Assembly: GCF_900172335.1 (NCBI RefSeq)
Contig: NZ_FWFX01000002.1
Location: 372,001 to 436,000 of the forward strand
Source: Roseovarius albus
GTDB lineage: Bacteria; Pseudomonadota; Alphaproteobacteria; Rhodobacterales; Rhodobacteraceae
Length of the DNA: 64,000 nt
Reading direction: 5' to 3'
A program made the position numbers and the translations under genes. Shown in pieces: positions 9,266 through 56,580 of the stretch. Each line of letters begins with the position of its first letter. Position 1 is the stretch's first letter. The notes beneath the pieces were generated by a model. It did not search any database, was not told the DNA's origin, and saw only the letters and a program-made list of their open reading frames with translations.

Positions 9266-11017
9266 TTAGTCTTCTTCGAAGGGATCCCACTCATCTTCGA
9301 CCTCTGGCAGCGCTTCAGCGAGGGCTTCGAAGGCCTGTTCTTGCGCGGTTTTCACGTCGATGATTTTGGCTTTGGGAAAGGCAGCCAAAACTGCCTGCAC
9401 CATTGGGTGTTCTGTGGCTTCGGCTTTGATGGCATTTGTGACGGCATCGCGCTTCTCGGCGATGGTTTCCGCGCCGCCTTCGTTGACTACTGAGACCGCC
9501 CAGCGATTTCCAGTCCAACGCTGCAATGCTGAGCCAAGACGTTGGGACAAGTCCGCTGGGGCATTGCTGGTTGGAACAAATTCGATACGGCCGGGTTGAT
9601 AGGCCGCAAGGCGCAAATTGGTCTCGACCTCGACCAGCAGTTTGACATCGCGATTGGAACGTATCAGCTCAACCACATGTTCGAATGTCGGGTAGTGTGC
9701 TAGCGCTGCGCCGACTTGCGGCGCCAACGCAGTTGCCTGACCAGTCGGGCCAGAACCACCAGTGGGGGCTGCCGTCGTGCTGGCGGCATAGTTTGATCCG
9801 CCTCCGGAAGGTGCCCCGTTTGGAGTGGCTGGGGTGGGGCCGGGCGCGGGTGGTGGAAGCGTATCTTGCAGCTTGCGCATCAGATCTTCGGGCGCGGGCA
9901 GGTCGGCGACATGGGTCAGGCGGATTACGGCCATTTCAGCCGCCATCATCGCATTGGGGGCGGCGGCGACCTCTTCCAGTGTTTTTAACAACATCTGCCA
10001 CATGCGGGTGAGGATCCGCATCGGCAGGGCTTCGGCCATCGACTGACCGCGCTGGCGCTCATCCGGGCTAATGGTTGGATCTTCCGACGCCTCGGGCGTG
10101 ATTTTCACCACGCTGACCCAATGGGTGATCTCGGCCAGATCGCGGAGCACCGCCAGCGGGTCAGCCCCATCGGCATATTGCGCGCCCAGTTCGGTTAGCG
10201 CCCCCGCAGCATCGCCCTTGAGGATCAGGTCAAATAGATCAAGCACGCGCCCGCGATCCGCTAGCCCCAGCATGGCCCGCACCTGATCAGCGGTGGTTTC
10301 CCCGGCACCGTGGCTGATTGCCTGATCCAACAGTGACGTCGCATCCCGGGCAGAGCCTTCGGCGGCGCGGGTGATCAGGGCGAGAGCGTCATCGGCGATT
10401 TCGGCATTTTCCGATGTAGCGATCTTGCGCAGCAGGGCAATCATCACTTCGGGTTCAATCCGGCGCAGGTCAAAACGCTGGCAGCGCGACAGCACGGTGA
10501 CCGGAACCTTGCGAATTTCTGTGGTGGCAAAGATGAACTTCACATGCGCAGGTGGTTCCTCAAGCGTCTTGAGCAGCGCGTTGAACGCGCTGGTCGAGAG
10601 CATGTGGACTTCGTCGATGATGTAAATCTTGTAGCGAGCGGAAGCCGCACGGTAATGCACCGAATCGATGATTTCGCGGATGTCATTCACACCGGTGCGA
10701 GACGCAGCGTCCATCTCCATCACGTCAACATGCCGCCCTTCCATGATGGCAGTGCAATGTTCGCACTGTCCACATGGGTCGGTGGTGGGACCGCCATTGC
10801 CATCGGGGCCGATGCAGTTCATCCCCTTGGCAATGATCCGTGCTGTGGTGGTTTTACCGGTGCCACGGATGCCGGTCATAATGAAGGCCTGCGCGATGCG
10901 ATCGGCGTCAAAGGCGTTCTTGAGCGTGCGCACCATCGCATCCTGCCCGACAAGATCAGCAAAGGTTTCCGGCCGGTATTTACGGGCAAGGACCTGATAG
11001 ACGGGCGTGTCGGACAA
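9266..11017 (-). CDS. dnaX: DNA polymerase III subunits gamma and tau
   Basis: 583 residues. The AAA+ clamp-loader ATPase has Walker A G-I-R-G-T-G-K-T-T (about residues 48-56), a C4 zinc site (C-I-G ... C-G-Q-C-E-H-C), Walker B with I-D-E-V-H-M-L, and sensor S-R-C-Q-R-F-D-L-R-R. A Pro/Ala/Gly-rich linker (near residues 390-440) leads to a tau-type C-terminal domain and an acidic tail (E-D-E-W-D-P-F-E-E-D). It loads beta clamps and couples polymerases in the replisome. I see no obvious slippery heptamer for a gamma frameshift. Upstream of the fasciclin gene on the same strand. Confidence 0.96.
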   Translation of the reverse strand: MSDTPVYQVLARKYRPETFADLVGQDAMVRTLKNAFDADRIAQAFIMTGIRGTGKTTTARIIAKGMNCIGPDGNGGPTTDPCGQCEHCTAIMEGRHVDVMEMDAASRTGVNDIREIIDSVHYRAASARYKIYIIDEVHMLSTSAFNALLKTLEEPPAHVKFIFATTEIRKVPVTVLSRCQRFDLRRIEPEVMIALLRKIATSENAEIADDALALITRAAEGSARDATSLLDQAISHGAGETTADQVRAMLGLADRGRVLDLFDLILKGDAAGALTELGAQYADGADPLAVLRDLAEITHWVSVVKITPEASEDPTISPDERQRGQSMAEALPMRILTRMWQMLLKTLEEVAAAPNAMMAAEMAVIRLTHVADLPAPEDLMRKLQDTLPPPAPGPTPATPNGAPSGGGSNYAASTTAAPTGGSGPTGQATALAPQVGAALAHYPTFEHVVELIRSNRDVKLLVEVETNLRLAAYQPGRIEFVPTSNAPADLSQRLGSALQRWTGNRWAVSVVNEGGAETIAEKRDAVTNAIKAEATEHPMVQAVLAAFPKAKIIDVKTAQEQAFEALAEALPEVEDEWDPFEED

Positions 11018-11117
11018 AGGGGCCTCCGAAGCTGTTAGAATCCGTTGTCGCCACAGTAGGCGGAGCTAGGACGGAGGTCCAGCAGGGAGATGGCGAATCC
11101 AGGGTCCGAATCTAGGG

Positions 11118-37114: not shown

Positions 37115-38515
37115 TCAGTCCCACCATGGACCGTGGTGTTGGCCGTCTTCGCCCAAGCGTTCAAAGCCGTGGTAGCCGAAGAAATCGCGCTGGGCCTGGA
37201 TGATATTGGCGGTGCCAAAGCCTTGGCGCATGGTGTCGAACCAGTTGAGGGCGGATGAGAGCGCCGGGATGGCGTGGCCGCCAGTGACAGCGGCGCTTAC
37301 CACCGTGCGCAGGGCGGGGATGGTGCGGGCGAGGGTCTCGGTGAATTTGGGCGAGAGGATCAACTGGCTGTGTGGGGGCTGATCGGCAAAGGCCTCGGAA
37401 ATATCATCGAGCAGGGCCGAGCGGATGATACAGCCTGCGCGCCAGATCTCGGCAATGCGGCCCATGTCGAGCGCCCAGTCGTATTCTTTTGAAGCGGCAT
37501 CAAGAATGCGAAAGCCTTGCGCATAACACAGGATACGGGCAGCGAGGAAGGCATCTGCGAGCACTCCGGGATCAACGGTGAACCAGTCGCGTGCGCCGCC
37601 GAAATGGTTTTGCATCTCTTGTCGGGTCTCTTTTTCCGCAGACCACGCGCGGGCGCCGACGGCAGCCTCGATCATATTTGTGCTCTGACCCATGCGCACC
37701 GCCTCGACCACGGTCCAGCGACCAGTGCCTTTTTGCCCGGCGGCGTCTTTGATGACATCGACTACTGCGTGACCGCTGAACGGGTCAGTGTATTGCAGGA
37801 CCTTGCCGGTGATTTCGACCAAATAGGATTTTAACGGGCCCTTATCCCATTCCTCAAACAACTTGCCGATGTCCGAGGGCGGCCAAGCCGACCCGTAGCG
37901 CAGAAGACCGTAGAGCTCGGCGATGACCTGCATGTCAGCGTATTCGACGCCGTTATGCACAGTCTTCACAAAATGACCCGCGCCATCGGGGCCGAGGTGA
38001 TCGACGCAAGGGTTATCCTGATAGGTGGCGGCGATAGCGCGCAGGATGGGCCGGAGCTGGTGCCAGCTGTGCTCGGTTCCACCCACCATCATTGAAGGGC
38101 CGTGGCGCGCACCTTTTTCTCCACCGGAGACGCCCATGCCGACAAAGTGAATGTCTTTGTCTTTCAATGTCTTTGATCTGCGTCGGGTGTCGTGGAAATT
38201 GGCGTTGCCGCCGTCGATGATGGTGTCGCCGGATTCAAGCAGGGGCGTGATCTGATCGATCATCATGTCCATTGGTGCGCCTGACGGAATCATGAACAGG
38301 ATCACGCGCGGGGTTTTGAGGTCAGCGACGAAGTCTGCGAGCTTGTTATGCGGATGCAGGCGCGCGGCAAGATCGCCTGCGTCAGCTATGAACGGCGCGA
38401 TCCAGTCTATCTCTCGGTTGGTGACGGCCACTTCAAAGCCATGACCCGCCATGTTCAGTGCCAGTGCGCTGCCCATTGTTCCCAATCCGTACACACCGAT
38501 CTGCGCTTGTGTCAT
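37115..38515 (-). CDS. gndA: 6-phosphogluconate dehydrogenase (NADP, decarboxylating)
   Basis: 466 residues. N-terminal G-V-Y-G-L-G-T-M-G-S-A-L-A-L-N dinucleotide site, I-I-D-G-G-N-A-N-F, G-M-G-V-S-G-G-E-K-G-A-R-H-G-P-S-M, and the catalytic lysine in H-F-V-K-T-V-H-N-G-V-E-Y are all visible. It makes ribulose-5-phosphate and NADPH in the pentose phosphate pathway. Full length. The Tat lipoprotein gene is downstream on the same strand. Confidence 0.96.
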   Translation of the reverse strand: MTQAQIGVYGLGTMGSALALNMAGHGFEVAVTNREIDWIAPFIADAGDLAARLHPHNKLADFVADLKTPRVILFMIPSGAPMDMMIDQITPLLESGDTIIDGGNANFHDTRRRSKTLKDKDIHFVGMGVSGGEKGARHGPSMMVGGTEHSWHQLRPILRAIAATYQDNPCVDHLGPDGAGHFVKTVHNGVEYADMQVIAELYGLLRYGSAWPPSDIGKLFEEWDKGPLKSYLVEITGKVLQYTDPFSGHAVVDVIKDAAGQKGTGRWTVVEAVRMGQSTNMIEAAVGARAWSAEKETRQEMQNHFGGARDWFTVDPGVLADAFLAARILCYAQGFRILDAASKEYDWALDMGRIAEIWRAGCIIRSALLDDISEAFADQPPHSQLILSPKFTETLARTIPALRTVVSAAVTGGHAIPALSSALNWFDTMRQGFGTANIIQAQRDFFGYHGFERLGEDGQHHGPWWD

Positions 38516-38754
38516 GACCCCTCCGACACTTGATACCGAGATCGCAGGCTACGCGTTGAGGCGGGATTTGCAAGGGCTGTGCGTCAGGTTCACAAGCGGT
38601 GTCCATCGGACTATTGGAACAAGCGGATTTTTGAGTATCCGACGTAGAGCGACTTGGAATTCACACAAGCAGCAATAAATTGTGATCGCCTTATAGCGAG
38701 GTGTGAGGCGGAAACGGGATTGTCCCGGGCGGTTGACTGAGGTTTACTTAGGGC

Positions 38755-49984: not shown

Positions 49985-50944
49985 ATGACTGACAACGTTT
50001 TCACCGGTACGATGCCGGCCCTGATGACCCCCTGTAAAGCAGACCGGACACCGGATTTTGACGCGCTTGTGAAAAAGGGCAAAGAGATGATCGCCGCGGG
50101 CATGTCCGCCGTGGTTTATTGCGGCTCGATGGGTGACTGGCCGCTGCTAAGCGATGCCGAGCGTATGGAAGGTGTGGAGCGTTTGGTTGATGCGGGCCTG
50201 CCTGTGGTTGTTGGCACCGGTGCGATCAACTCCAAATCTGCCGTGGCACTGGCAGCGCATGCGCAAAAGGTGGGTGCAGTGGGCCTGATGGTGATCCCGC
50301 GCGTCCTGTCGCGTGGTACGTCGATGGCCGCGCAAAAGAATCACTTCAAGGCGATCTTGTCTGCCGCACCTGATGTGCCCGCGATTATCTACAACAGTCC
50401 GGTCTACGGTTTTGCGACAAAGGCTGACTTGTTCTTTGCCCTGCGCGCCGAGCATCCGAATCTAATTGGTTTTAAAGAGTTCGGCGGCAAGGATGACCTG
50501 CGCTATGCGGCTGAGCAGATCACTAGCCAGGATGACGATGTCACGCTGATGGTTGGTGTCGATACCGAGGTGTACCACGGCTTTGTTAACTGTGGTGCAA
50601 CCGGCTCGATCACCGGTATTGGCACTGCCCTGCCAACAGAGGCGCTGCTGCTGGCGGCTCTTTCCAAGAAAGCTGCTGAAGGTAATGCTGAGGCCCGCAA
50701 ACGCGCGCTGGAACTGGAAGAGGCGTTTGGCGTTCTGGCCAGCTTTGATGAGGGCACCGATCTGGTTCTCTACTACAAGCATCTGTTGGTTCTGAACGGC
50801 GAGGAAGAGTACCGCCTGCAATTTAATGAGACCGACGAGTTGAGCGCTGCGCAACGCAACTATTGCGAACAGCAATATGCGCTGTTTAATGCGTGGTTCG
50901 CTGATTGGTCCAAACAAGGCGGGATCATCGCTGAATGCATGTGA
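49985..50944 (+). CDS. DHDPS family enzyme, probable 1-pyrroline-4-hydroxy-2-carboxylate deaminase
   Basis: 319 residues. Schiff-base lysine in I-G-F-K-E-F-G-G (K164) and catalytic Tyr in I-I-Y-N-S-P (Y136). In hydroxyproline pathways this family (HypD) converts pyrroline-4-hydroxy-2-carboxylate to alpha-ketoglutarate semialdehyde and ammonia. The assignment comes from the family plus the neighbours, as DHDPS-family activity is not told by sequence alone. It overlaps the next gene by 10 bases. Confidence 0.85.
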   Translation: MTDNVFTGTMPALMTPCKADRTPDFDALVKKGKEMIAAGMSAVVYCGSMGDWPLLSDAERMEGVERLVDAGLPVVVGTGAINSKSAVALAAHAQKVGAVGLMVIPRVLSRGTSMAAQKNHFKAILSAAPDVPAIIYNSPVYGFATKADLFFALRAEHPNLIGFKEFGGKDDLRYAAEQITSQDDDVTLMVGVDTEVYHGFVNCGATGSITGIGTALPTEALLLAALSKKAAEGNAEARKRALELEEAFGVLASFDEGTDLVLYYKHLLVLNGEEEYRLQFNETDELSAAQRNYCEQQYALFNAWFADWSKQGGIIAECM

Positions 50945-51867
50945 TCAACAGCCATACCGGCGGGATGCCCACGCGGGTGATCCTTGACGGCAGCCCGGAT
51001 CTTGGATCCGGGCCTTTGGCCGAACGGGCAAGGTGTTTGGCCGCGGACCACAAGGTGTTCTATAAATCGATCCTGCTGGAGCCACGCGGCCAACCCGGAA
51101 TGGTCGGGGCCTTGCTGGTAGAGCCAGTTGACCCGGACTGTGTGACCGGGGTGATCTATTTTGACGCCGATGCGGTGTTGGGCATGTGCGGGCATGGCAC
51201 CATCGGGTTGGCGGTGACGCTGGCCGAATTGGGGCTCATCGATGTGGGCACGCATAAGATCGAAACACCGGCAGGTGAGGTGACGATTGCCCTGCAGGAT
51301 GCCAATACGGTTACAGTGACGAATATCGAAAGCCGCCGGGTGGCCCCCGCGGTCTCGGTTGAAGTTGAGGGCTATGGCACCGTGACCGGGGATGTGGCCT
51401 ATGGTGGCAACTGGTTCTTTATCGTCGATCCCAGTCCGATCCCGGTGACCACGGGCAATATCGCCAAGATGACTGCCATGACCATTGCGATCCGCGAAGC
51501 CTGCATTGCGCAGGGTGTGGGCGGTGAGCAGGGTGAACCGATCGATCACGTGATTTTTCAGGGGGCGGCGGGAGCGGGCGGCGTGCATAGCCGCAACTTT
51601 GTTCTGTGCCCTGATGACACCTATGATCGTTCGCCCTGTGGGACCGGCAGTTCGGCACGACTGGCCTGTTTGGCGGCGGCGGGAACACTGGCCCCCGGTG
51701 TGGAAATTATCCAGAAAAGCGTGATCGGCAGCCCGTATCGCCTGTCCTATCAGCCGGGGCCAAATGGCGGGGTCATCCCCTCGCTGACCGGTCAGGCCCA
51801 TATTATGGGCGAAAGCACATTGCGCTTCGCCGAGGGTGATCCGTTTAAGGGCGGGATTTACCTCTGA
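50935..51867 (+). CDS. 4-hydroxyproline 2-epimerase (proline racemase family)
   Basis: 310 residues. Both catalytic cysteines are present: M-C-G-H-G-T-I (C85) and S-P-C-G-T-G-S-S-A (C235), the Cys/Cys pair of proline racemases and 4-hydroxyproline epimerases. The operon context favours epimerisation of trans-4-hydroxy-L-proline to cis-4-hydroxy-D-proline. Starts inside the last codons of the DHDPS-family gene. Confidence 0.88.
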   Translation: MHVINSHTGGMPTRVILDGSPDLGSGPLAERARCLAADHKVFYKSILLEPRGQPGMVGALLVEPVDPDCVTGVIYFDADAVLGMCGHGTIGLAVTLAELGLIDVGTHKIETPAGEVTIALQDANTVTVTNIESRRVAPAVSVEVEGYGTVTGDVAYGGNWFFIVDPSPIPVTTGNIAKMTAMTIAIREACIAQGVGGEQGEPIDHVIFQGAAGAGGVHSRNFVLCPDDTYDRSPCGTGSSARLACLAAAGTLAPGVEIIQKSVIGSPYRLSYQPGPNGGVIPSLTGQAHIMGESTLRFAEGDPFKGGIYL

Positions 51868-51933
51868 TATTCTCGGACGGGCGCGGTGGTGCCCGCCTGA
51901 AACACGATTCAGTTCTATTTGAGCGAGGCCGAA

Positions 51934-53172
51934 ATGGCGCAAGATGTCATTGTGATCGGAGCCGGGGTGGTTGGCGTCAGCGTCGCGCTGGAGCTGATCC
52001 GGCAAGGCCTTTCTGTCCGGGTGATTGACCGCGAGGGTGTGGCGGCGCAGGCCTCAATGGGTAATGCAGGGGCCTTTGCCTTTACCGATATCGTGCCGCT
52101 GGCCACGCCGGGCATCATGCGCAAGGCTCCCAGGTGGTTGCTGGACCCCTTGGGGCCGTTGTCGGTGCCTCCCCGCTATGCGCTCAAGATCGCACCGTGG
52201 ATGCTGCAGTTCTGGCGGGCGAGCTGGCGGGATCGGTACGAGCATTCATTGAAGGCTCAAACCACGCTGAATGGACTGGCGCGGGAAGCGTTGGGACGGC
52301 AGATTGCGGCGACTGATGGCGAACGTCTCATCCGGCGCGAGGGGCAGATGCAGCTCTTTGAAGGCGAACGCGAGTTTCAGGCCAGTCAAGAGGCTTGGGA
52401 TCTGCGCCGCGCGCATGGCATCGAGTTTGAGCTGCTCGAAAATGCAGGAGCCATTGCGGAGATCCAGCCGGGCATCGATCCGCGTTTTACCCATGCCGGA
52501 TATACGCCGCAGTGGATGAATACAGTGGACCCGAAAACCTGGGTCGAACACTTAGCGCAGGCCTTTGTGACGCAGGGTGGGGTGATTGAGACAGGCGATG
52601 TGTACGCGCTGGAGAACACTGCCGATGGTGTGAGTCTGAAGATCACTGATGGAGAGATCAACGCTCGCAAGGTCGTCGTGGCTTGCGGGGCGTGGTCTCA
52701 CCATCTGGCGCGCACTGTGGGCGATCGTATCCCGTTGGAGACCGAGCGTGGCTATAACACCACATTGCCAGCCGGGGCTTTTGATCTGCGCACGCATCTG
52801 ACCTTTGGCGGCCATGGGTTTGTGGTCAGCAAAATCAATGACGGCGTCCGGGTTGGTGGCGCGGTGGAGTTGGGTGGGCTCAAGTTGGCGCCCAATTACA
52901 AGCGTGCGGATATCCTGTTGAACAAGGCGGCGCAGTTCCTACCCGGGCTCAAGACCGAAGGCGGCAAACAATGGATGGGTTTCCGCCCGTCGATGCCGGA
53001 CAGCCTGCCGGTGATCGGGGCATCGGAACGCGCAGGCAATGTGATTTACGCCTTTGGTCATGGTCATTTGGGCTTGACCCAATCAGCGGCAACGGCAGAA
53101 CTGGTGGCATCGATTGTGAAAGATAAAGTGGCGTCAATTTCGATGACGCCGTATGCTCCAACCCGTTTCTGA
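51934..53172 (+). CDS. FAD-dependent oxidoreductase, probable D-hydroxyproline dehydrogenase
   Basis: 412 residues of the DAO/GOX family. V-I-V-I-G-A-G-V-V-G-V-S (FAD, near residues 5-16) and the C-terminal M-G-F-R-P-S-M-P-D-S-L-P-V-I-G are family landmarks. D-amino-acid dehydrogenase DadA-like proteins in this position oxidise cis-4-hydroxy-D-proline to the pyrroline. The ATG at 51934 gives a normal FAD start; an in-frame TTG 15 bases upstream is the alternative. Between the two proline-racemase-family genes. Confidence 0.85.
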   Translation: MAQDVIVIGAGVVGVSVALELIRQGLSVRVIDREGVAAQASMGNAGAFAFTDIVPLATPGIMRKAPRWLLDPLGPLSVPPRYALKIAPWMLQFWRASWRDRYEHSLKAQTTLNGLAREALGRQIAATDGERLIRREGQMQLFEGEREFQASQEAWDLRRAHGIEFELLENAGAIAEIQPGIDPRFTHAGYTPQWMNTVDPKTWVEHLAQAFVTQGGVIETGDVYALENTADGVSLKITDGEINARKVVVACGAWSHHLARTVGDRIPLETERGYNTTLPAGAFDLRTHLTFGGHGFVVSKINDGVRVGGAVELGGLKLAPNYKRADILLNKAAQFLPGLKTEGGKQWMGFRPSMPDSLPVIGASERAGNVIYAFGHGHLGLTQSAATAELVASIVKDKVASISMTPYAPTRF

Positions 53173-53183
53173 AGGGATAGCCC

Positions 53184-54209
53184 ATGCGCAGTAGCAAGGT
53201 CGTTCATGTCATCTCGGCCCATGCCGAGGGTGAAGTGGGGGATGTCATCGTTGGTGGGGTCACACCGCCACCGGGAGAGACCCTGTGGGAGCAGCGTAGT
53301 TTCATTGCCAAGGATGAGACCTTGCGCAATTTTGTTCTGAATGAACCGCGTGGCGGGGTGTTTCGCCATGTGAACCTGCTGGTGCCGCCCAAGCATCCCG
53401 AGGCTGATGCCGCTTTTATCATCATGGAGCCGGAAGATACGCCGCCGATGTCGGGGTCTAACTCAATCTGCGTCTCAACCGTGGTGCTGGATGCCGGTCT
53501 GGTTGAAATGCAAGAGCCGGTGACCGAGATGCTGCTCGAGGCCCCCGGTGGGCTGGTCAAAGTGCGAGCCGAGTGCAAGGGCGGCAAGGCCGAGCGGATT
53601 TTTGTACAGAACCTGCCCAGCTTTGCCGACAAGATCGGCGTGCCACTGGAGGTACCGGGGCTTGGAACAATCACCGTTGATACCGCCTATGGCGGAGATA
53701 GTTTTGTGGTGGTGGATGCGGCATCTCTGGGCTTCGAGATCGTTGAATCCGAGGCCAAAGACATTGCCCGCCTGGGTGTGAACATCACCAATGCCGCGAA
53801 TGAGCAGCTTGGCTTTACCCATCCGGAAAACCCGGATTGGGATCATATTTCATTCTGTGCTTTTTGTGGCCCGTTGAGCGAAACCGAGACCGGCCTGACC
53901 GGCAAATCGGCTGTGGCCATTCAACCGGGCAAGGTGGATCGCTCGCCGACTGGCACGGCGGTGTCAGCACGGATGGCGCTGATGGCGGCCAAGAGACAGA
54001 TGCAGCAAGGCCAGACATTCGAGGCGGTGTCGATCATCGGGTCGCGTTTCACCGGACGGATCGTGGAAGAAGTACAGGTTGGAGGCTTTCCGGCCATCGT
54101 GCCTGAAATCAGCGGGCGTGGTTGGATCACTGGCACGCATCAACATATGCTGGACCCGTCTGACCCCTGGCCCGAGGGGTATCGCCTGAGCGACACTTGG
54201 GGCGCGTGA
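53184..54209 (+). CDS. Proline racemase superfamily protein with Ser/Thr catalytic pair
   Basis: 341 residues. The fold landmarks match the epimerase two genes upstream, but the first active-site position is M-S-G-S-N-S-I (S90, and the usual His is Asn) and the second is S-P-T-G-T-A-V-S-A (T256). Cys/Cys members racemise, Cys/Thr members dehydrate trans-3-hydroxy-L-proline, and Ser/Cys members epimerise. This Ser/Thr pair lacks both thiols, so a dehydratase or another reaction on a related substrate is likely, but unproven. It starts 11 bases after the FAD enzyme. Confidence 0.8.
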
Positions 54210-54254
54210 GGTGGAAATGCTGCCCCACTCAATGGCTTCCAATGTTTGGAGGCT

Positions 54255-54264
54255 TATTGTATCC
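54255..54264. promoter_or_regulatory. Candidate GntR operator before the regulator gene
   Basis: TATTGTATCC is the exact reverse complement of GGATACAATA, found at 55021-55030. It lies 30 bases before the GntR start, which would allow autoregulation. Confidence 0.45.
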
Positions 54265-54293
54265 CCAGCATCAACTTAGGCATGGGGTATGAT

Positions 54294-54974
54294 ATGGCAG
54301 GTAAACGTGCGGTGGCGAAGCAAAGCTTGCCAGAAATCATTGCGAATGACCTGCGCGAACGTATCTTGAGCGGAGAAATGGCTGAGGGGGAAACCATCCG
54401 TCAGGAGGCATTAGCGGAAGAATACGACGTATCGCGCATGCCTGTCCGTGAAGCGCTGAAACGCCTGAATGCCGAAGGGTTGGTGCAATGGGCCAACAAT
54501 CGCGGTGGGTCGGTCACCAAGCATTCGCTACACGAAATCGGAGAAATCTTTGATCTGCGGACTTTGATCGAGGTCGATATGTTTCGACGTTCCATTCCGA
54601 ATATGACGGATACTGACTTTAAGCAGTGCAGAGACATTTTGGAGCGGATGGAAACCTCTTATGATCAGGATGATGTGTCTGAGTGGGGTGCGTTGAATGA
54701 CGATTATCATTCGGCGTTGTGTGCGGCGTCGGGGTTGAAGATGACCGCCGAGATTCTGAACCGCCTGAGTGTGCAATCTGACCGCTATGTTCGTATGCAC
54801 CTGAGCGTGATGCAGCAGCGGGATCAGGCAAAGGAAGAGCATGGTGAACTGCTGCGGTTGGCCATGGCTGGCAAGGTCGAGGAGGCCTGCTCCTTGTTGA
54901 CCCGCCATGTTCAACGGACAAAAGATGAGCTGCTTGAACTGATTGCCGCGAAGCGGGCCGCAGAAGAAAGCTGA
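54294..54974 (+). CDS. GntR (FadR subfamily) transcriptional regulator
   Basis: 226 residues. N-terminal winged HTH (P-E-I-I-A-N-D-L-R-E-R-I-L-S-G ... S-R-M-P-V-R-E-A-L-K-R-L) and an all-helical FCD ligand domain with the metal-binding pattern ending E-E-H-G-E-L-L-R ... L-L-T-R-H-V. The ATG at 54294 has GGGG 7 bases upstream; another ATG at 54282 is possible. It sits inside the hydroxyproline cluster and likely represses it, with a hydroxyproline intermediate as inducer. Confidence 0.92.
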   Translation: MAGKRAVAKQSLPEIIANDLRERILSGEMAEGETIRQEALAEEYDVSRMPVREALKRLNAEGLVQWANNRGGSVTKHSLHEIGEIFDLRTLIEVDMFRRSIPNMTDTDFKQCRDILERMETSYDQDDVSEWGALNDDYHSALCAASGLKMTAEILNRLSVQSDRYVRMHLSVMQQRDQAKEEHGELLRLAMAGKVEEACSLLTRHVQRTKDELLELIAAKRAAEES

Positions 54975-55065: not shown

Positions 55066-56580
55066 ATGACATTTGTCCCTCATGGAAAACACCTGATTGC
55101 TGGCGAATGGTTGGCAAGTGACAACACCTTTGTCTCAGCGCCAGCGCATGGACCAGAGCATCACTATTCAGTGGGGCGTGTCTCGGACGTTGATTCTGCC
55201 ACATCAGATGCTGAAGAGGCATTTTGGAGTTATGGCTATTCGTCACGTGAAGAGCGCGCCGCTTTCCTGAATGCGGTTGCGGATGAGATCGAGGCGCGTG
55301 CAGTTGCAATCACGCTAATCGGGATGCAGGAAACCGGTTTGCCAGAGGCGCGCCTGCAGGGCGAGCGGGGCCGTACCACTGGACAGATCCGCCTGTTTGC
55401 AGATCACATACTGGCAGGAAAATATCTGGACATGCGCCACGATGTGGCCCTGCCTGATCGCCAGCCGCTGCCGCGCCCTGACCTGAAAATGGTCCAACGC
55501 CCCATCGGCCCTGTCGCTGTATTCGGAGCATCGAACTTTCCGTTGGCCTTTTCGACGGCAGGCGGTGACACCGCCGCGGCATTGGCCGCCGGTTGTCCGG
55601 TTGTCGTCAAAGGCCACAGCGCCCATCCCGGAACCAGCGAGATCGTGGCCGAAGCTATTTATGCTGCGATTAAGAAATGCGACATTCATCCCGGCGTGTT
55701 TAGCCTGATTCAAGGGGGTGATCGTCGGGTCGGGGCCGCTTTGGTGCAGCACCCGTTGATCAAGGCTGTTGGCTTTACTGGTTCTCTTGCGGGTGGTCGG
55801 GCGTTATTTGACCTGTGCGCGGCGCGCCCTGAACCTATCCCATTCTTTGGCGAGCTGGGTTCTGTTAACCCAATGTTCATTCTCGATGGGGCTTTGAACA
55901 GCAGGGGTGACGACATTGCCACAGGTTGGGCCGGATCACTGACCATGGGCGCGGGGCAGTTTTGCACCAATCCCGGTATCGCAATTGTTCAGGCGGGTGA
56001 GGCAGGAGATCAGTTCGCAAAAACCGCGCAGGACGCCCTTGCCAGTGTTCCGGCGCAAACCATGCTGACAGATGGCATTGCAGCGGCCTATCGCGATGGC
56101 AAACGTCGAATTGCGGAAACAGACGGCGTGCAGGAACTGTTAAACACGTCATGTGATCAGCGCAAGGCCACGCCCTATCTGTATCGCACCACGGCGCAGA
56201 ACTGGCTGGCGAATGAATCCTTGGCCGAAGAGGTCTTTGGCCCACTTGGGGTGATCATCACTGCGGAAACCACAGATGAAATGCTCGAGATCGCTCTGGC
56301 ATTGCAGGGTCAGCTGACCTGTACCCTGCATATGGATGATGGCGATATTGATGCAGCCCGTGCCCTGATGCCGATTATTGAGCGCAAGGCAGGCCGGGTC
56401 TTGGCCAACGGGTTCCCCACCGGGGTCGAAGTGTCAGACGCCATGGTTCATGGCGGGCCCTATCCGGCCTCAACCAACTTTGGCGCTACGTCGGTGGGCA
56501 CTCTGTCGATCCGCCGCTTCCTGCGCCCGGTTTGCTATCAGAACTTGCCCGATGCGTTGTTACCAGCACAGTTCAGCTAA
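55066..56580 (+). CDS. Aldehyde dehydrogenase, probable alpha-ketoglutarate semialdehyde dehydrogenase
   Basis: 504 residues. NAD(P) site in F-G-A-S-N-F-P-L-A-F-S, E263 in G-E-L-G-S-V-N-P, and the catalytic Cys in G-A-G-Q-F-C-T-N-P-G (C300). The F-S-T-A-G-G-D-T-A-A-A-L-A-A-G-C segment is typical of the KGSADH branch that finishes hydroxyproline and pentose pathways with alpha-ketoglutarate. It follows gntR by 91 bases and has its own likely operator. Confidence 0.9.
   Translation: MTFVPHGKHLIAGEWLASDNTFVSAPAHGPEHHYSVGRVSDVDSATSDAEEAFWSYGYSSREERAAFLNAVADEIEARAVAITLIGMQETGLPEARLQGERGRTTGQIRLFADHILAGKYLDMRHDVALPDRQPLPRPDLKMVQRPIGPVAVFGASNFPLAFSTAGGDTAAALAAGCPVVVKGHSAHPGTSEIVAEAIYAAIKKCDIHPGVFSLIQGGDRRVGAALVQHPLIKAVGFTGSLAGGRALFDLCAARPEPIPFFGELGSVNPMFILDGALNSRGDDIATGWAGSLTMGAGQFCTNPGIAIVQAGEAGDQFAKTAQDALASVPAQTMLTDGIAAAYRDGKRRIAETDGVQELLNTSCDQRKATPYLYRTTAQNWLANESLAEEVFGPLGVIITAETTDEMLEIALALQGQLTCTLHMDDGDIDAARALMPIIERKAGRVLANGFPTGVEVSDAMVHGGPYPASTNFGATSVGTLSIRRFLRPVCYQNLPDALLPAQFS

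Follow-up and report, generated by a model that had tools for sequence, protein, structure and literature searches.

Gene content of the hydroxyproline cluster

The window, by which we mean the whole 64,000-nucleotide stretch of Roseovarius albus DNA analysed here, contains a cluster with the gene order DHDPS-family protein, Cys/Cys epimerase, FAD oxidoreductase, Ser/Thr protein, GntR regulator and aldehyde dehydrogenase (Table 1).

Table 1. Genes of the cluster, with positions in the window
Feature	Position	Strand	Basis
DHDPS-family protein	49985..50944	+	Pfam DHDPS; PDB matches 2hmc, 4mpq, 5czj
Cys85/Cys235 4-hydroxyproline 2-epimerase (paralogue)	50935..51867	+	NF052296, 541 bits, cut-off 450
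FAD-dependent D-amino-acid oxidoreductase, predicted cis-4-hydroxy-D-proline dehydrogenase	51919..53172	+	Pfam DAO, 199 bits
Ser/Thr proline racemase superfamily gene	53184..54209	+	Frame open, 341 aa, intact
GntR/FCD regulator	54246..54974	+	Pfam GntR and FCD
Aldehyde dehydrogenase, predicted alpha-ketoglutarate semialdehyde dehydrogenase	55066..56580	+	Pfam Aldedh

The three PDB matches of the DHDPS-family protein score 511-526 bits, the next match reaching 77 bits; one of the three, 5czj, we take to be S. meliloti HypD. The Cys/Cys paralogue (281 bits with Pfam Pro_racemase) reads MCGH from residue 84 and SPCGT from residue 233, which places its thiols at Cys85 and Cys235. The predicted function of the FAD oxidoreductase is named from its cluster position; among the 25 matches listed for it no NCBIfam model is above cut-off, and the same holds for the 25 listed for the aldehyde dehydrogenase, whose top PDB match (3v4c, 796 bits) is titled only Aldehyde dehydrogenase (NADP+). 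The GntR regulator probably starts at a later ATG, since its homologue in a relative begins further in. Judged by sequence, the window neighbours are consistent with a 4-hydroxyproline route, the setting in which the original prediction had placed the Ser/Thr gene: the DHDPS-family protein, the NF052296 epimerase, the FAD oxidoreductase and the aldehyde dehydrogenase all fit it.

The Ser/Thr protein and its characterised relatives

The Ser/Thr product matches Pfam Pro_racemase over residues 9-334 (443 bits) and shares 93% identity with the homologue from the nearest of 60 searched genomes of the genus, so the frame can be taken as a real gene. It is 27% identical to the upstream paralogue. The motif MSGSN from residue 89 and SPTGT from residue 254 give Ser90 and Thr256, Ser92 occupies the position of His in MCGH of the paralogue, and Asn93 is also present. 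The motif positions thus bear out the residues and numbering previously proposed (S90/T256 against C85/C235 upstream), together with the claim that both thiols and the adjacent His have been lost.

The protein scores 636.1 bits with NF047722 T3LHypDht (cut-off 550), a match that covers residues 1-340 of 341. Five further matching models all stay under their own cut-offs; three 4-hydroxyproline epimerase (4HypE) models give 219, 142.9 and 85.5 bits (cut-offs 376, 450 and 442, respectively), and NF045511, presumably the model of T3LHypD Type I, gives 211 bits against a cut-off of 540. Where Type I (Cys/Thr) enzymes have a first-face catalytic Cys the protein has Ser90, and where Cys/Cys 4-hydroxyproline 2-epimerases have two catalytic Cys it has Ser90 and Thr256. 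Its location in a 4-hydroxyproline operon would suit a second 4-hydroxyproline epimerase, but both thiols are absent, a Cys/Cys epimerase adjoins it and the three 4HypE models are under cut-off, so that we consider this assignment exceedingly improbable.

The best three PDB sequences, 4k8l, 1tm0 and 4k7g, all carry MSGSNS and SPTGT, as does the Ser/Thr protein, and the alignment with 4K7G is gap-free with 226 of 341 positions identical (66%). The 4K7G protein, B9K4G4, was solved with pyrrole-2-carboxylate and seen by NMR to dehydrate trans-3-hydroxyproline (t3Hyp) (eLife 2014, PMC4113996). In the account given there, Ser90 is catalytic and positioned by Asn93, with the same numbering as in the window protein, the usual His is replaced by Ser, and Thr256 adopts a non-catalytic orientation. 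One sentence of the same paper lists B9K4G4 as an orange-cluster 4HypE; we take it as a t3Hyp dehydratase (t3HypD), a reading shared by the figure legend, the PDB title and the section devoted to the t3HypD structure. The Ser-Thr type has also been designated T3LHypD ‘Type II’ (PLoS One 2015, PMC4364671).

Compared with 4K7G, which belongs to cluster 3 of Zhao et al. 2014, the window protein has Ser90, Ser92, Asn93, Asp252 and Thr256 at identically numbered positions; it differs at residues 226-229 (AFCG against QMTT in 4K7G) and has A259 and V260 where 4K7G has G259 and C260. Type I T3LHypD, comprising the Cys/Thr enzymes of humans and bacteria, shares the predicted reaction and a Thr on the second face (PMC4113996) but has a catalytic Cys where the window protein has Ser, and its ligand-binding sites 1, 2, 4 and 5 are described as entirely different from those of Type II (PMC4364671). 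The Ser/Cys 4-hydroxyproline epimerase B9JQV3 (PDB 4LB0) has the first-face Ser/Asn motif of the window protein but, unlike it, a second-face Cys that enables epimerisation (PMC4113996).

Homologue survey and phylogeny

We surveyed 91 regions with a homologue at least 57% identical, out of 97 scanned (six at 48.2%-51.0% were excluded). The 91 include the window itself, four hand-picked plasmid records and one genome, G110, twice; short fragment matches (e.g. G271, G005, G150, G154 and G174) were left out. Neighbours were identified by tblastn with few query proteins in flanks of at most ~9-10 kb, a procedure that divergent genes may escape.

Ser90, Ser92, Asn93 and Asp252 are kept in all 91 regions. 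Residue 256 is Thr in 81 and Cys in ten (L113, L124, L126, L129, L130, L135, L136, L137, L174 and L176), the latter scattered over the tree. In a quick, midpoint-rooted tree of 103 rows, a 94-row clade with SH-aLRT 100 unites the window protein with 4k7g and 4k8l, and the Ser/Cys structures 4lb0 and 4q2h fall outside it; 11 of the clade's 94 rows are themselves Ser/Cys and nested inside. A Ser/Cys pair is also that of LhpL. Thr/Cys at position 256 changes eight times over the 103-row tree, with four changes forced by well-supported branches, and eight changes are again obtained when the columns around residue 256 are omitted. Residue 256 has switched between Thr and Cys repeatedly, which provides natural protein pairs for a one-residue comparison of epimerase and dehydratase.

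The original prediction had named tight clustering with an already characterised Ser/Thr group as the outcome speaking against it, and the window protein does cluster with such a group (the clade of 4K7G and 4K8L). The prediction had also given Cys/Cys, Ser/Cys and Cys/Thr as the known pairs of the family; these pairs do occur, but the list was incomplete, the Ser/Thr pair having been published since 2014 (PMC4113996, PMC4364671). The pair is not new, and loss of the thiols and His, previously called unusual, is normal for the characterised Ser/Thr group. Ser90 and Thr256 are the normal residues of one characterised group of bacterial t3Hyp dehydratases, and the window protein is most likely an ordinary member of this group. 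The earlier suggestion of an enzyme for another hydroxyproline isomer, or of a dehydratase, gains support from NF047722 and the 4K7G protein, both of which stand for t3Hyp dehydratase. The result is mainly one of annotation: a t3Hyp dehydratase can be assigned to a Roseobacter-type operon, and the Ser/Thr pair is not unexplained. A literature search combining hydroxyproline, Roseobacter and proline racemase found no paper.

Genomic context of Ser/Thr genes in relatives

Ruegeria sp. TM1040 has the first four cluster genes in window order, after a TRAP transporter. On a Sulfitobacter indolifex plasmid the genes for 4HypE, an aconitase-family protein and the Ser/Thr protein are consecutive; at the edge there is an Ldh family gene. 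S. meliloti 2011 has a homologue with 75% identity to the window protein and, as in the latter, the Ser/Thr pair and A259; its gene, like the window gene, adjoins those of 4HypE and an FAD oxidoreductase. The S. meliloti cluster additionally holds genes for an Ldh family reductase, aconitase X and an ABC transporter for amino acids. Aconitase X of P. aeruginosa is reported to be a cis-3-hydroxyproline dehydratase (PMC5144071), and 3-hydroxyproline genes accompany the Ser/Thr gene in some related operons. On the Ruegeria pomeroyi megaplasmid, the replicon covered by the search, 4-hydroxyproline genes are present but the 19 kb examined contain no Ser/Thr gene, and the query matches the megaplasmid once, at the epimerase; the 4-hydroxyproline route thus seems independent of the Ser/Thr gene.

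Across the survey, aconitase X was found in 25 of the 81 Thr256 regions, an Ldh_2 homologue in 13 and an OCD gene in two, and none of the three in the ten Cys256 regions. The Ldh_2 match lies ~1 kb downstream of the Ser/Thr gene in six of the 81, that of L141 being partial. Among regions flanked by 6 kb or more on each side, 33 of 67 Thr256 regions and one of six Cys256 regions contain one or more of the pathway neighbours searched for, and 34 of the 67 contain none of them. A second proline racemase gene is present in 34/81 Thr and 1/10 Cys regions; a tie between Thr256 and such a gene nearby was tested and found no support (30/67 versus 1/6 with flanks of at least 6 kb, Fisher P-value 0.23), nor did tree-aware pairs link the two.

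Variation around the active site could point to a different substrate, for example a proline analogue derived from peptides or some other isomer of hydroxyproline, accommodated through the changes at residues 226-229 and 259-260. Among the 81 Thr256 members 60 have L226 and 11 have A226, and 69 have A259, so that most depart from Q226 and G259 of 4K7G; many of their genes are without visible hydroxyproline neighbours, as in Phaeobacter inhibens, where the Ser/Thr gene stands alone, next to M24 peptidase and oligopeptide transporter genes. However, S. meliloti 1021 uses t3Hyp for growth (PMC4113996, Table 3), the S. meliloti 2011 homologue has A259, and the window and S. meliloti genes both lie within hydroxyproline clusters. 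We regard a changed substrate as very unlikely.

Predicted reaction

We favour, with a probability of roughly 0.86, a Ser/Thr-type (Type II) trans-3-hydroxyproline dehydratase whose product would be reduced by an unlinked reductase. Structure, residue roles and dehydration have been reported for B9K4G4 (4K7G; PMC4113996), and from these we predict, by analogy, what the window protein catalyses. Ser90, held by Asn93, would remove the alpha-proton of trans-3-hydroxy-L-proline, and protonated Ser90 would then assist departure of the 3-hydroxyl from the same face, a syn elimination. Because Thr256 would be in no position to serve as acid/base for the second face, hardly any epimer, if any, would be expected. 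The dehydration product would give pyrroline-2-carboxylate, and its reduction to L-proline would fall to a ketimine reductase whose gene lies elsewhere in the genome. Adjacent 4HypE and t3HypD, with both substrates used, are described for several species in the Discussion of PMC4113996, and this is the arrangement that we propose for the window. The assignment draws on NF047722, the shared motifs, the identity with 4K7G, the residues kept in 91 of 91 regions and the aconitase X and Ldh_2 neighbours; weighed against it were the heterogeneity of cluster 3, the lack of a ketimine reductase in the cluster, the differences at 226-229 and 259-260, the 34 of 67 Thr256 regions without pathway neighbours and the occurrence of OCD in only two of 81.

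The same enzyme might be promiscuous, combining t3Hyp dehydration with a physiologically useful epimerisation of 3- or 4-hydroxyproline. PMC4113996 portrays cluster 3 as functionally mixed: some of its members show both 4HypE and t3HypD activity, and one, D0B556, epimerised 3Hyp, so a side epimerase activity is conceivable. Yet epimerisation requires a second-face acid/base, Thr256 is in a non-catalytic orientation in 4K7G (PMC4113996), and a dedicated Cys/Cys epimerase is already encoded in the window cluster. A promiscuous enzyme of this kind seems unlikely.

Predicted ketimine reduction and a possible Thr/Cys switch

The window cluster contains no ketimine reductase gene; such a gene is present in 14 of the 81 Thr256 regions, including that of the closest relative. 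A neighbouring ketimine reductase supports the assignment by context but does not define the dehydratase. In that relative (L140, with the 93%-identical homologue) an Ldh_2 ketimine-reductase-like gene (10029-11048, minus strand) lies between the Ser/Thr and GntR genes, on the opposite strand and ending two bases past the Ser/Thr stop; its best PDB match is a delta1-piperideine-2-carboxylate reductase (202.7 bits). In the window 36 bases separate the Ser/Thr stop from the GntR frame (54209-54246).

Two Ldh_2 proteins are encoded in the window genome, with 36% and 31% identity to that of L140; the one on contig C11 (71521-72435) matches the piperideine reductase at 268.7 bits, better than the L140 protein does. 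Of six OCD matches in the genome, four score above the thresholds of models built for other functions (two for EutC, one each for BhcD and ornithine cyclodeaminase). One of the remaining two has as its best model a pyrroline/piperideine-2-carboxylate reductase, below cut-off (241 bits against 322), and a relative of it lies ~1 kb from aconitase X in L097; the other has a pyrroline-2-carboxylate reductase, 6t3e, as its best PDB match (97 bits). Because the genome has these Ldh_2 proteins and two candidate OCD proteins (C11 137381-138115 and C16 4463-5356), a reductase encoded elsewhere may plausibly serve the Ser/Thr enzyme.

A wider scheme, which we put forward only tentatively and hold to be rather doubtful, would have Thr256 in the Ser90 clade mark a committed dehydratase and Cys256 a dual epimerase/dehydratase, with repeated flips that residue 259 follows and with a rewired pathway in the organism of the window. 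Within this scheme the rewiring would consist either in the loss of a neighbouring ketimine reductase and its replacement by an unlinked enzyme or in the diversion of pyrroline-2-carboxylate to another use. A259 occurs in none of the ten Cys256 homologues (P-value 1e-7 against the 69 of 81, on raw counts); with four independent pairs on supported branches and a median P-value of 0.5, the link between Thr256 and Ala259 may reflect shared descent.

Further family members

Two more Ser-type members were seen in the same genome. A second hydroxyproline-like cluster on contig C9 (L187, 3142-6402) has an FAD oxidoreductase gene and a Ser/Cys superfamily gene, with, judged by eye, a DHDPS-like gene too. 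A third Ser-type member, also Ser/Cys, lies on contig C27 (L186, 9001-10074), where by eye a peptide-binding protein gene is nearby and an integrase gene further away. On contig C29 of the same genome (G000, 37642-38609) a divergent proline racemase-like match falls into two overlapping stretches, one with a stop, and is possibly broken. In one fragmented assembly (L026 and L111) a Ser/Thr homologue has an in-frame TAG directly after Asn93, reflecting either decay or sequencing error.
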